From Gammaproteobacteria bacterium (GTDB lineage Bacteria > Pseudomonadota > Gammaproteobacteria > Steroidobacterales > Steroidobacteraceae): a DNA stretch of 35,072 bases. The notes under the pieces were generated by a model. That model was not told the origin of the DNA, searched no databases, and saw only the letters and a program-made list of their open reading frames with translations. Positions 157-13,165 of this stretch are shown one piece after another. Within the stretch, counting starts at the first letter, position 1. Each line of letters starts with the position of its first letter. The translations under genes and the position numbers were made by a program. The stretch covers positions 1 through 35,072 of the forward strand of contig VBNP01000012.1 of the NCBI GenBank assembly GCA_005877965.1. The letters run 5' to 3'.

Positions 157-564
157 GATTGCTTCTCCTCTCGAGTAATGCTTAAAGACGCGCAGACAAT
201 GATAGGGCGAGAGGTTGGCGGCAGCGACTTGCTCAGCGGCGGTAATCGGCTCAAGGAGCTTGGCCGCGGCGGCGGCCTCACCCGCCTGCAGGGTCCGCAG
301 GACCGTATCGAGGCGCTCCGCGGCACTGGCGGCTGCGTGCGGGGCCCCAGCCGCGCAGAGCGCGCCGCACACCAGCACCGCGAGCGCAAGGGTGGCGCAC
401 ACAACGATGAGTCGCATCCCAGGATGCTAGCGGACTCGAGGTCCGCGCCGGTTGCGGTTCTTGCGAACATACGGTCGGCAGGCGCTCCGCGCGCTCGCTC
501 TCCGAGGCCGTTGACGCCGTGCTCGATGAGCGGCAGACTGATGTTGCGTTCAGGAGCTTGTCGA

Positions 565-745
565 CCTCACGGTCGCACGAGTGAAACGGGAAGCCGGTGA
601 AGCCGACGAAAGGCCAACCCGGCGCTGCCCCCGCAACGGTAAGTGAGTAAAAGCCGAGTCATGACGCCACTGCGCTTCGGCGTGGGAAGGCGACCCGGCA
701 GGATAGTTCCACTCACGAGCCCGTAGACCGACCTGCGACGCAGAG
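565..745 (+). ncRNA. Cobalamin (AdoCbl-type) riboswitch
   Basis: Signature blocks: GAAGCCGGTGAAGCCGAC, GCTGCCCCCGCAACGGTAA, GCCACTGCG...CGTGGGAAGGCG, CGAGCCCGTAGACCGACCTGC. Upstream of btuB. Confidence 0.9.
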
Positions 746-873
746 GCACGTGTTGCGGTGGGCAGCATCGGTGCGGAGCGGCCGGTGTCACTGCACTGCG
801 CATTCTCTGCATCGCTTCCCATCCTCCACGTCGATCGGTCCGACACATGCACGGCGGGTGCATGGAGGGTGGG

Positions 874-8684: not shown

Positions 8685-9320
8685 CTAGAGCAGGCCGTCC
8701 AGTCGGTCGAGGTCGTTGATGACGCGCCAGCGGCCGCCGCCTTTCTCCACCCTGGCGCGCCAGACTTCGAGTCGCGACAGGTATTCGCGCGGGTCGAAAT
8801 TGTCGGAGCGCAGCTTCGTCACGTTGAGCGCTACCACCTCGAAGCCCTTGAAATCGAGCGGCAGGTCGCGCACGTAGCCCTTGGCCAGCTCCTCCTTCAT
8901 GTCGGAGAAGATCAGAATCTCCTTGCGGCCCGTCTTCTTCTCGTTCAGGAACTCGATCGCCTGCAGCAGGCCGCCGGTGATGTCCGTATACGGCGCGGAC
9001 CTGGACTCATCAGCGAATTTCTCTACGCGGCTGGCGAACGCGCGCTTCTGCTGGTTTGCGGTACTGGGACGGTCGTCGAACGTGGCCTTGGCGATGATGT
9101 TCTTCTCCGTGAAGCTCGCGGTGTCAATCCGCGCAACTGCCAAGGAATCCAACGGCTGCAACCGCGACAGGGCGAACAGGATGATCTGCTCTGCCTTGCT
9201 CACCTGCCGGTTGTACGAACCCGACGTATCGATCAGCAGGTACACGCCCGTGTTGTGCGGTACCGGGGACGAGCAGGCTGTGAGCAGCAGTGCCGCGCCC
9301 ACGAAGTGCCGCCAGTTCAT
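8685..9320 (-). CDS. von Willebrand factor A-domain lipoprotein
   Basis: Lipobox LLLTAC; MIDAS-type DTSGS (DxSxS), later TDITGG and FSD. Confidence 0.8.
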   Translation of the reverse strand: MNWRHFVGAALLLTACSSPVPHNTGVYLLIDTSGSYNRQVSKAEQIILFALSRLQPLDSLAVARIDTASFTEKNIIAKATFDDRPSTANQQKRAFASRVEKFADESRSAPYTDITGGLLQAIEFLNEKKTGRKEILIFSDMKEELAKGYVRDLPLDFKGFEVVALNVTKLRSDNFDPREYLSRLEVWRARVEKGGGRWRVINDLDRLDGLL

Positions 9321-10750
9321 GACTGCACCTCCTGCAACGATTCCTCCTCAATGGGCGGTGCCGCATGCGCAGCCGCGATCCTCGCTTCGATCCATAGCGG
9401 CACGAACAGCGGGAGGTCGTAGATCCGCTCCGCCAGCGTGCCGAGATGGCGCAAGCCGTTACCGAGAACGCGAAGGATGAGCGCGAGCGCCCGCAGCACC
9501 CCGATACCCGTCAGGCCCATCACGGTGCGCAGCGAGTGCACGAACGTCTCGAGCGGTATGGCGGCAAACACCAGCGCGAATGGCAGGATAAATCCCATGC
9601 CCATCTGTGCCATCGTGGTGATCCACAGATGCCCGTTCACCAGCGCTGCCGCATTCTCGCCACGCAGCAGCGCGGTGGTCGCGAGCTCGTCCTGCAGCAG
9701 CACTTCGCGCATGTACGCGAGGCCCGCTTCGATACTCGCCATCAGCAGCAGGATCATGAAGGTAATCCCCATCATGCGCAGGCGCATTTTGTCCGACAGA
9801 GCGCCGATCACGGGAAATAGGCGCGTGATGCGCAACGACTCCATGAGGAACAGACCCATGGAGATCTCGACCATGATGATGACGAGCGCAGCGATATCAG
9901 CCGTGCGGAACACGCCGATGAAGCTCGTCCCGCCGACCATCTCCGCCATCGGCCGCGCGATCAGCGTGAAGTTGATCGCAGCCCCGGCCATCGCCACCGC
10001 GAGCACTAACATTGAGACGAAAAAGTTCACCAGCGATGAGGACGACAGCACCGACAGCGCGCGGTCCTCTCCGTGCACGATCGTCTCGTAGTCCTGCATG
10101 TGGCGGTCGATGACCAGCGAGCGCTCGATGACGCTCGCCACGCTCTTGTTCACGCGGCCGAGCGTTTCCTGGATCAGGCGCCAGTCGGGCATCATTTTCC
10201 GCAGCAGCGCGTGACGCTCGCCGCTTGCCTTGCGGTAGTCGTCCATCGCTTCGCCGTGCGCCTTGACCATCGATTTGTGAATGTCGGCGAGGATGTCGGC
10301 GCCGGTATTGCGCGTATCGAGATTGGCGATCACCGCGACCGCCTTCGCCCAACCCGGCGCCTCCGGCGGCACCTCCACCGCTTTCTCCTGATCCTCCTCG
10401 ATGCGGATGATCGCTTCACTCAGGCGGCGGTGCATGTCCGGATAGTTCGCCAGATCCTTGCGCGCGGTGTCCGCAACGCGCGCAAACTCGCGTTCTACCA
10501 TTCGCTCCTTGGCGTCGCGTCCGGCATTGAGCAGTACCTCGCGATTGCGTGCTGCGAGGCGCTCCTCAGCGTGCGCGACCGAATGCGAGGCAAGGCGAAA
10601 CCCGCGCGCCAACGCGCTCGTGGCCGCGTGGATCGCCTGGTGAGCGGTGTGCCGCGCCAGATACAGCGCCGTGATCAGCAGCACCAGCAGGATCGCTGCC
10701 GACACCACCGGCCAGGGCGTGATAGTCAATAGATTCGTGATTATGGACAT
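9317..10750 (-). CDS. Uncharacterised multi-pass membrane protein with N-terminal TM and long helical/coiled-coil region
   Basis: 477 aa with no recognised family. About five hydrophobic segments; region 45-230 is charged and helical. Overlaps the vWA gene by 4 bp (ATGA). Confidence 0.75.
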   Translation of the reverse strand: MSIITNLLTITPWPVVSAAILLVLLITALYLARHTAHQAIHAATSALARGFRLASHSVAHAEERLAARNREVLLNAGRDAKERMVEREFARVADTARKDLANYPDMHRRLSEAIIRIEEDQEKAVEVPPEAPGWAKAVAVIANLDTRNTGADILADIHKSMVKAHGEAMDDYRKASGERHALLRKMMPDWRLIQETLGRVNKSVASVIERSLVIDRHMQDYETIVHGEDRALSVLSSSSLVNFFVSMLVLAVAMAGAAINFTLIARPMAEMVGGTSFIGVFRTADIAALVIIMVEISMGLFLMESLRITRLFPVIGALSDKMRLRMMGITFMILLLMASIEAGLAYMREVLLQDELATTALLRGENAAALVNGHLWITTMAQMGMGFILPFALVFAAIPLETFVHSLRTVMGLTGIGVLRALALILRVLGNGLRHLGTLAERIYDLPLFVPLWIEARIAAAHAAPPIEEESLQEVQS

Positions 10751-10864
10751 GTGGAGACTCGCTTACGTTTGCCCGAAGGCGCGAAGACGGCGGATTCGGG
10801 CCGTCCGGTGCGGAAAGCTCAGGATCGGTGCGGGCGATCGCCGCACGGTACGGATGACATCCAA

Positions 10865-10955
10865 GATGGCAACCCCGCTATCATAGGAAACCCCTTAGAC
10901 CGGTGGCTTTGCGGCCCTTTCTTTCGAAAGGTGTGCCTTTGCTGAACCGCGGTCA
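10865..10955 (-). ncRNA. Cyclic-di-GMP-I (GEMM) riboswitch
   Basis: Minus-strand RNA AAAGGCACACCTTTCGAAAGAAAGGGCCGCAAAGCCACCGGTCTAAGGGGTTTCCTATGATAGCGGGGTTGCC matches GGCAaACC, GAAA tetraloop P2, GGGaCGCAAAGCC, ccGGuCUAA and aGCGGGGUUgCC. Confidence 0.87.
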
Positions 10956-11043
10956 GGGTGCTGCTACGGGGTGCACCTGTCAACGTATTAGGTCGCATTT
11001 TGAAGGCAGCGTTATGTCACCACGCGTCACGCCGCGGATTCCG

Positions 11044-12942
11044 TTACTCGGCGCTCGCGATCAAGCTCAGATCCGGTGCGGCCGGATGCTCGACCGCACG
11101 ACGTGCGGTCGGGGCCGTGGACCCGCGTTGTCCCGCAATCATCGCGCGGTCCCGACCGGATTCCTTGGCGCAATAGAGGGCTTCGTCGGCCATTCTCAGC
11201 AGTTGCTCAAAATGTGGACCCATAGTCGTGTCGGAGATGCCGAAGCTTGCCGTAAAGGCGGGGGTTCCGCCCGCGAGCAGGTTCTCGGCGAGCTTTGCGC
11301 GAACCCGATCGACCACTTCCTGAGCCTGCGAGGCGCCGGAGTGAGGCAGAACCAGAACGAACTCCTCACCACCCCAGCGTGCGGCCAGGTCGCCGTCGCG
11401 CAAACTCGTGCACAGAGTTTGGGCAAAGAGCCGGAGCGCCTGATCACCCGCCTCGTGCCCGCGTGAGTCGTTGAGGCGCTTAAAGTGATCCAGATCCGCG
11501 ATAACCAGGGCGAACACTTTGCCCTCGCGGTTGAGCTGCCGGACCCGCTCTTCCGCGGACCGTCGATTGGACAATCCGGTCAGACTGTCGGTGGTTGCCT
11601 TGCGCTGTGTGCTATTGAATGCGCGCAGCGTGCCGATGCGGGCTCCGGCCTGCATGCCAAGCGTCGTTAGTTGGGCGACCTGGCGGGCCGTCGGGGGCTT
11701 GCCTGCGGGAGCCGCGCTGTGCAACACGCCCAGCGCCCGTCCCATGAAGCTCACGGGAACGCACACCGCGGAAACCGCCCCGCACGGCCGGCCGCGCAGG
11801 CGCGAGCAGGCATTAAGCGCCTCGCTGTCGGGAAATATCACCGGATTGCTCCGACGCACCGCCATGCAACTGAAAGGTGACTGCACGTCACAGCCCGGCG
11901 CGCCGGCATCCGGATGCTGTGTCGCCTTCTCCAGGTGCGTTCGACTGGAATCCGCCAGCAGCAGCTCGGTGGGAAGGTCATTTGAGATCACCTTCATGGC
12001 GCGCCCCAGCACTCGATAGGCCTCTTCTTCGGTGTCGGCCATCTCGAGCGCTTCCACCAATTGAGTGCCAAAGGCATCCCGGTCGGCCTCGGCCCGCAGT
12101 CGTCCGATGACCTCATTCAGGTGATCGGCCATGTCGTTGATCGCGTGGCCGAGCTCTCCGAGCTCATCCTGGCTCGCGACCACATTTCGGACACCAAGAT
12201 CGCCTTGGGACAGCGTCACGGCCACATCGCGAACCTTGCGCAGGGAGGAGCGGATGGACCGCGATAGCCATGCGACCAGCATCGCGACCACGACACTGGT
12301 CAGAACTCCTGCCATGATCAGCCAGCGCTTGGCATTTGCCTCGGCGCTAGCGGCGTCGTTGGTGGCCTCGGTGATGTGTGCCGTGAACGCCGCCGTCTGT
12401 TGAAGCATGCCGGCATCCAATGCATCGCCGGCTTCCCGAAAGGCCGGCAGCAGCGCTCCAGCCGCCTCGGCATCGCGAAGTGCCAGGGGCCCGGTTTCCA
12501 TGGCCCGGGCCAGAAAGGTATCGGCCAGGGTACGCACCTTGGTCTCGGTCTCGACCAGATCGGCGGCAAGGTGGAAGTGCTCGAGCGTCAACAGATCGCG
12601 GCGAAGGTCCTTGGCATTCTCCGCCAGCGAATCGGCGACCGTCGAGCGCTCATCCGCCGAGAGCGTGCCGCTCGCGAGAGCCGCATTCACGTCGGCCCGC
12701 AGATTGGCGTGGACCGTGTCGGCATCCTGATGATAGCGAGCCGCCTTGCTGATCAGCGCCAGCTCCGTCATGGCGCGGCTCTGGGCGCTCAGTGCCCGCC
12801 AGGCAATCACCGTGACCACCACCAGGGCCGCCATCAACAAGCCGTTGATCAGCAGCAGGCGGGCGCCCACGGACCACGCGGGCAACCGCAGGGCGTTGAG
12901 AACCTTAGGCATCCGGTCACTCAGAATGGAACTGACCGCCAT
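11044..12942 (-). CDS. Diguanylate cyclase: N-terminal TM/periplasmic sensor, HAMP, GAF, GGDEF
   Basis: HAMP-like RSIRSSLRKVRDVAVTLSQGDLGVRN; GAF-like Cys-rich region; DLDHFKRLNDSRGHEAGDQAL...RDGDLAARWGGEEF with RxxD I-site. Alternative start M11. Confidence 0.93.
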   Translation of the reverse strand: MAVSSILSDRMPKVLNALRLPAWSVGARLLLINGLLMAALVVVTVIAWRALSAQSRAMTELALISKAARYHQDADTVHANLRADVNAALASGTLSADERSTVADSLAENAKDLRRDLLTLEHFHLAADLVETETKVRTLADTFLARAMETGPLALRDAEAAGALLPAFREAGDALDAGMLQQTAAFTAHITEATNDAASAEANAKRWLIMAGVLTSVVVAMLVAWLSRSIRSSLRKVRDVAVTLSQGDLGVRNVVASQDELGELGHAINDMADHLNEVIGRLRAEADRDAFGTQLVEALEMADTEEEAYRVLGRAMKVISNDLPTELLLADSSRTHLEKATQHPDAGAPGCDVQSPFSCMAVRRSNPVIFPDSEALNACSRLRGRPCGAVSAVCVPVSFMGRALGVLHSAAPAGKPPTARQVAQLTTLGMQAGARIGTLRAFNSTQRKATTDSLTGLSNRRSAEERVRQLNREGKVFALVIADLDHFKRLNDSRGHEAGDQALRLFAQTLCTSLRDGDLAARWGGEEFVLVLPHSGASQAQEVVDRVRAKLAENLLAGGTPAFTASFGISDTTMGPHFEQLLRMADEALYCAKESGRDRAMIAGQRGSTAPTARRAVEHPAAPDLSLIASAE

Positions 12943-13165
12943 CTTATGGCGAAACGGTCACCGGACCTGAGAACGCGTGGGCAGTCGGGGCGGACTTGGT
13001 GCACAAGCCGCGAAATTCAGCGTCTCATGAGCGTGCGCCAGAACCGTTTTGTGACCGCAGTCGACATCCTGCCGGATCGCGGTCGCCGATTTTCCATAAG
13101 CCGCGATCTGCCGTCGGGCTCTGCGGAGCCCTGCGGAGCCGCGATCCTTACAGGCGCCCCGAACG

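Follow-up and report, generated by a model that had tools for sequence, protein, structure and literature searches.

Does this locus place the enzyme that makes a second messenger, the RNA that senses it and the envelope proteins under its control side by side in a single unit? The question is raised by a 35,072-nucleotide stretch of gammaproteobacterial DNA (contig VBNP01000012.1; termed here the window), on the minus strand of which a diguanylate cyclase gene is followed by a cyclic di-GMP (c-di-GMP) aptamer, by a gene for a membrane protein (termed here MEM) and by a gene for a lipoprotein with a von Willebrand factor A (vWA) fold. The initial annotation located these four elements correctly and read them as a self-contained circuit controlling an envelope complex. 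The analysis presented here, which is computational throughout (sequence searches, alignments and predicted structures), indicates instead that aptamer, MEM and vWA lipoprotein recur together whereas the cyclase does not and, furthermore, that in most relatives the MEM start codon is placed directly against the aptamer, an arrangement pointing to an RNA that would serve both as c-di-GMP sensor and as ribosome-binding site.

An aptamer and two envelope genes form a recurrent unit

The elements of the unit are, in order of transcription:

10955-10983, minus strand: candidate promoter TTGACA-N17-CACCCT, directly 5' of the aptamer, between it and the cyclase gene
10865-10947, minus strand: c-di-GMP-I (GEMM-I) aptamer
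9317-10750, minus strand: MEM gene, encoding an inner-membrane protein of 477 residues (apparent topology from sequence and model)
8685-9320, minus strand: gene for the vWA-fold lipoprotein (211 residues), overlapping the MEM gene by ATGA

The Rfam c-di-GMP-I model (RF01051) matches the aptamer with 76.1 bits (E = 2e-13), well above the gathering score of 35. The aptamer's end at 10865 is as first annotated, but its start lies at 10947 rather than near 10955; likewise, it does lie downstream of the cyclase gene on the same strand, but across a gap of about 97 nucleotides rather than immediately after the stop codon. It matches the known class in aptamer sequence, in P2/P3 structure and in the ligand-contacting positions G20 and C92 (numbered as in the Vc2 structure). 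Among 66 distinct MEM leaders, to which all leader counts below refer unless stated otherwise, G20 is present in 62 and C92 in all 66; in the window G20, C92, P2 and P3 are intact.

MEM relatives occur at 45 loci in the genome collection (loci are labelled L, and genomes of the relatives' collection G), and an alignment profile detects MEM in 75 of 396, 51 of 369 and 21 of 399 genomes sampled from the window's order, class and phylum, respectively. Wherever enough sequence is available, the vWA gene nearly always lies directly 3' of MEM, and the pair co-occurs across Gammaproteobacteria and in some Alphaproteobacteria. Nearly every lineage of the window's order has the aptamer ahead of MEM; the exceptions are one Steroidobacter-type genus and a small number of congeners. 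The claim that a riboswitch heads an operon encoding a membrane protein of no known family together with a vWA lipoprotein is borne out by this recurrence of aptamer, MEM and vWA gene, as a unit, in dozens of genomes; from the four-part order originally proposed, only the cyclase drops out. No further conserved neighbour was seen among the neighbours scanned, and MEM was not found in the plasmid collection.

Outside the window's order, an aptamer was found at only one of the checked loci (L159), which suggests that the riboswitch was probably recruited, within that order, to an older gene pair. MEM and its partner thus constitute an unnamed, widespread envelope pair, for which the tie to c-di-GMP in one lineage provides a first handle on its role.

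Three variants of the unit were also observed. Loci L193, L194 and L195, which lie outside the window's class, carry a divergent MEM-vWA subfamily (28-30% identity), again as a pair. At L049 (5950-7830) a single frame covers MEM and the C-terminal part of the vWA protein but not the start of its metal-ion-dependent adhesion site (MIDAS), which reflects a fusion, a deletion or an assembly error. At L009 the vWA gene is followed, on its own strand, by a second aptamer (472-584, minus strand), of the c-di-GMP-I-GGC type.

The MEM start codon abuts the aptamer in most relatives

In 50 of the 66 leaders the MEM start codon lies 2-4 bases (normally 3) past C93, directly after the end of the Rfam aptamer: ATG stands at the same position in 44, is shifted by one base in 5, and is replaced by GTG in 1. 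An in-frame stop codon occurs within the aptamer in 39 of these leaders; in 37 of the 39 no alternative start codon precedes the abutting one, which is therefore the earliest possible start there. Moreover, the N-termini predicted from abutting codons align (ITPWPV) with those of relatives that have no aptamer. A Shine-Dalgarno sequence, GGGGU or GGAGU, forms part of the 3' strand of P3 and precedes the AUG by 7-8 bases, which is normal Shine-Dalgarno spacing; the GGAG form, present in 23 MEM leaders, mostly creates an uncompensated C.A mismatch in P3. Among 25 aptamers that precede other genes in related genomes, only one has a start codon (TTG) within one base of the abutting position, and none has GGAG.

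The four bases before the AUG constitute the 3' strand of P1. Of 51 distinct P1 strand combinations, 25 pair perfectly, as opposed to 8.4 +/- 2.2 upon permutation (0 of 5000 permutations reach 25), a figure inflated by relatedness, of which the test takes no account. The perfect pairings comprise nine different pair sets, however, and this variety of compensating pairs in the aligned leaders is direct evidence for P1 despite relatedness.

Riboswitches whose aptamer contains the ribosome-binding site are classed as acting by direct occlusion, and those listed are the SAM-II/V, SAM-III, SAM-SAH, some preQ1-I and the preQ1-II riboswitches (PMC10907184). The c-di-GMP-I class is not in that list; c-di-GMP enters the same source only through Cd1 which, along with the related cGAMP pilM switch, is described as a case of co-transcriptional strand exchange. 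The abutting MEM leaders resemble the SAM and preQ1 riboswitches in having the ribosome-binding site in or beside the ligand-binding RNA, but those riboswitches differ from c-di-GMP-I in ligand and fold; conversely, relative to c-di-GMP-I riboswitches, most MEM leaders carry no expression platform apart from the aptamer, which itself contains the Shine-Dalgarno sequence. No report of a c-di-GMP-I aptamer with an abutting start codon was found in the open-access literature. These comparisons give good support for regarding the MEM leader as architecturally new within a known riboswitch class: it is a compact natural design, found in dozens of genomes, that would combine c-di-GMP sensor and ribosome-binding site in a single RNA fold and that allows sensing and output to be tested on one short leader.

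A conserved candidate promoter directly precedes the aptamer

The candidate promoter would start transcription at the 5' strand of P1. A similar arrangement (a TTGACA-like box, a 16-18-nucleotide spacer and xAxxxT) occurs at the same place relative to the aptamer in 46 of the 66 leaders, versus a mean of 2.2 and a maximum of 7 in 200 shuffles, and it is kept at L020, a congener's locus where no aptamer was detected. A consensus scan of the window only, at a stricter threshold, reported no promoter. Because this promoter is conserved directly before the aptamer, the riboswitch operon likely has its own transcript start, which most likely coincides with the aptamer.

Additional motifs were seen upstream. 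In the window (11020-11012, minus strand) and in relatives, GTGACATAA or TTATGTC(G/A)C recurs 5' of the riboswitch promoter, and in several leaders without a TTGACA box TTATGTCGCAT occurs nearby, which together suggests a putative activator site. CRP-like sites (TGTGA-N6-xCACA) lie 5' of the promoter at L021, L007 and L013.

Proposed mechanism and points against it

These patterns lead to the following proposal. The MEM and vWA genes would be transcribed from their own promoter into a message that begins with the aptamer. In the 50 abutting leaders the aptamer, with the Shine-Dalgarno sequence in P3 and with P1 extending up to the AUG, would double as the expression platform, and c-di-GMP binding would lock P1 and P3, thereby keeping the 30S subunit off the Shine-Dalgarno sequence. 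Because that sequence would lie inside the bound aptamer, as in the direct-occlusion classes, ligand should turn translation off, a direction that we infer by analogy: translation would be off at high and on at low c-di-GMP. In the window's genus, where aptamer and MEM are set apart by a spacer of 110-177 nucleotides and MEM has a Shine-Dalgarno sequence of its own, control by c-di-GMP has probably been retained. We consider it likely that the locus is a two-gene operon with its own promoter and a c-di-GMP-I aptamer that acts, in most relatives, as an OFF switch by direct occlusion; with slightly less assurance, we favor the further view that this switch controls an undescribed MEM-vWA system and that selection has tuned GGGG to GGAG for ribosome binding.

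Several observations weigh against this proposal. First, four leader aptamers (L021, L118, L136 and L156) have A20; G20 separates c-di-GMP from cyclic GMP-AMP (cGAMP) variants, A20 being associated with cGAMP sensing, and these four leaders might thus prefer cGAMP. Second, ViennaRNA mostly pairs the Shine-Dalgarno sequence even without ligand (mean unpaired probability 0.21), so that ligand-free translation may be modest. Third, the MEM-vWA pair occurs without any aptamer in the Steroidobacter-type genomes (g20) and in the majority of loci outside the order, and can thus dispense with c-di-GMP control. Finally, whereas 50 of the 66 leaders have the ribosome-binding site in or adjacent to the aptamer, the window has neither the abutting geometry nor a canonical P1, so that the argument for direct occlusion rests on its relatives.

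The window's own leader

Three features of the window's leader bear on how it may work:

10872-10876, minus strand: GGGGU in the 3' strand of P3, equal to the Shine-Dalgarno sequence of relatives with an abutting start
10763-10864, minus strand: short leader open reading frame (ORF) of 33 codons, with a TTG start abutting the aptamer and a stop 12 nucleotides before the MEM ATG
10758-10765, minus strand: TAAGCGAG, the likely MEM Shine-Dalgarno sequence in the window's genus, given that (C/T)AAGCGAG recurs before ATG in related leaders

MEM starts here 114 nucleotides past the aptamer, behind its own Shine-Dalgarno-like sequence, and canonical P1 is gone both in the window and in its two closest relatives. 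A role for the GGGGU at 10872-10876 may be read from the 50 abutting relatives and from their GGAGU variant.

Such a spacer could serve as a strand-exchange platform, through which ligand binding would free the downstream start region and turn translation on, most plausibly in the window's genus; and both ON and OFF forms are known among cyclic-dinucleotide aptamers of this type (PMC9262584). In the 50 abutting leaders, however, a separate platform would not fit and the Shine-Dalgarno sequence would lie within the bound aptamer, and a consensus scan of the window region found terminators no more often than expected by chance, the leader containing none. An ON switch is therefore unlikely, though it fares best among the alternatives to direct occlusion.

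Somewhat less probable is a coupled arrangement in the window's genus, whereby the short ORF at the old start site would be gated by the aptamer and ribosomes would reinitiate at MEM once that ORF has ended. Of the 16 non-abutting leaders, 9 retain a start codon where the abutting one would lie, and the ORF stops exactly 12 nucleotides before the MEM ATG in the window, at L007 and at L021; yet at L014 and L017, among the closest relatives, it ends far earlier (after 18-19 codons), so that the 12-nucleotide spacing may be a chance match of frames. Nor is the peptide conserved across related leaders: ORF lengths range from 16 to 56 codons and frames differ even among the closest relatives, which rules out a conserved leader peptide. 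The ORF is probably a relic of an ancestral abutting start codon, as far as its position and variability indicate.

More doubtful still is that the aptamer is itself a relic without a present role in this genome. This would fit both the loss of P1 pairing and of the abutting MEM start in the window and the existence of congeners (L019 and L020) in which MEM is present and no aptamer was detected; but an aptamer that scores this far above the gathering score, with intact ligand-contacting bases, P2 and P3, and with a promoter still directly before it, speaks against a relic. Direct occlusion in most relatives, with c-di-GMP control probably kept in the window's genus, thus remains the preferred reading.

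The adjacent cyclase is a lineage-specific neighbor

Upstream of the promoter lie:

11044-12942, minus strand: diguanylate cyclase of 632 residues with transmembrane, HAMP, GAF and GGDEF regions (HAMP, GAF and GGDEF by Pfam)
11040-13137, minus strand: stretch of about 2.1 kb that carries the cyclase gene and that is absent at L017 and L056, where about 52 bp stand instead

The GAF and GGDEF domains first annotated were confirmed, and to these a membrane-spanning N-terminus and a HAMP domain must be added. The GGEEF motif is intact and is preceded, at a distance of five residues, by an RxxD I-site. In the two closest relatives, L017 and L056 (MEM 91% and 93% identical), the response regulator, kinase and peptidase genes found beside the cyclase are kept in the same order, but the cyclase that the window has between the response regulator gene and the riboswitch is absent; in the alignment, window positions 13138 and 11039 fall on L017 positions 5653 and 5706, respectively. 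A close cyclase ortholog was found in only 1 of 60 relatives (G016), a genome where no MEM was found. These comparisons rule out the cyclase as a conserved part of the unit or a recurrent neighbor of it, and a lack of such recurrence is what the initial annotation had named as refuting its circuit; judging from synteny, its adjacency is local, and it may have been either gained in the window or lost in both relatives. On the mechanism proposed above it would be a chance neighbor.

That the cyclase makes the signal sensed by the riboswitch next to it, for local control of an envelope complex, is accordingly very improbable: although the enzyme is encoded on the same strand about 97 nucleotides away, with a motif that indicates intact catalysis, and although L038 also has a cyclase just 5' of the operon on the same strand, the L038 enzyme has a different sensor domain (dCache) and is similar in GGDEF only (41% identity), the two closest relatives have no cyclase at the syntenic position, the single ortholog is in a genome without a detected MEM, a conserved promoter separates the riboswitch operon, one such neighbor is unsurprising in a genome with 22 GGDEF matches in 2.8 Mb, and a local cyclase would act mainly via the cellular c-di-GMP pool. 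An attractive circuit is thereby corrected to a proximity confined to this lineage.

Just beyond this stretch (13261-13166, minus strand) is a 31-residue hydrophobic ORF (MEFFLLDIGATLAVLLVYLAVVVWSDVARSL), possibly a small membrane protein, with a conserved counterpart at L017.

The MEM and vWA proteins

MEM was first described as belonging to no recognizable family, and this holds: it has no Pfam or PADLOC family, no NCBIfam match above the cut-off, no match among PDB sequences and no Foldseek relationship. Its top Foldseek matches, the Tweety homologs (TTYH), were rejected as relatives given an E-value of 0.04, a TM-score of about 0.2 and the absence of sequence similarity. The predicted structure is only moderately confident (pLDDT 74, pTM 0.48). 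MEM apparently has five transmembrane helices, the first of which is followed by some 200 residues of cytosolic coiled coil (orientation by positive-inside reasoning). Several glutamates in the third and fourth helices are invariant or nearly so.

The lipoprotein gene is, by its ATGA overlap, translationally coupled to MEM, as annotated, and its product has a lipobox cysteine (C16), a MIDAS-like D31-x-S33 and a predicted vWA fold (AlphaFold2, pLDDT 89.4), with Foldseek matches to vWA-fold proteins at E-values down to 2e-6. When family members are aligned against the MIDAS pattern DxSxS...T...D, D31, S33 and D140 are invariant and T112 nearly so, while the third position is S or T in most members and E in a divergent group. 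Pfam VWA_2 matches 37 of 44 members weakly, the window's protein falling below the Pfam cut-off. The fold is shared with BatB, the inter-alpha-inhibitor heavy chain and the CLCA1 vWA domain (Foldseek); unlike those proteins, the window's lipoprotein stands alone and is paired with MEM. Similarly, MoxR/Bat-type vWA systems have an AAA ATPase partner, whereas here the constant partner is MEM: no MoxR-type AAA ATPase was seen among 20 neighbors scanned, although L032 has one AAA-FHA protein.

In the lipoprotein members read, the residue that follows the lipobox cysteine is never aspartate; under the customary sorting rule this favors the outer membrane, where the lipoprotein is thus probably anchored, facing the periplasm. 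MEM, with its cytosolic coiled coil and polar transmembrane residues, would reside in the inner membrane, so that the two plausibly constitute an envelope-spanning pair and may form a complex.

Other riboswitches in the genome and window

The source genome has two further c-di-GMP-I aptamers. One (L062 7520-7607, G000:C52) lies 5' of a PilM-like gene (type IV pilus), an arrangement also seen in a relative (L085). The other (L063 2729-2812, G000:C67) is flanked by an lpxC-like gene on one side and, on the other, by an M23-type peptidase gene, after which comes a secA-like gene (names assigned by eye from translations), raising the possibility of c-di-GMP control over an M23-type cell-wall hydrolase.

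Elsewhere in the window, a cobalamin riboswitch (536-750, plus strand; 90.6 bits) precedes a gene for a TonB-dependent receptor (847-2736), after which come DBI_PRT (CobT-type) and CobS genes; this is an ordinary B12 locus.

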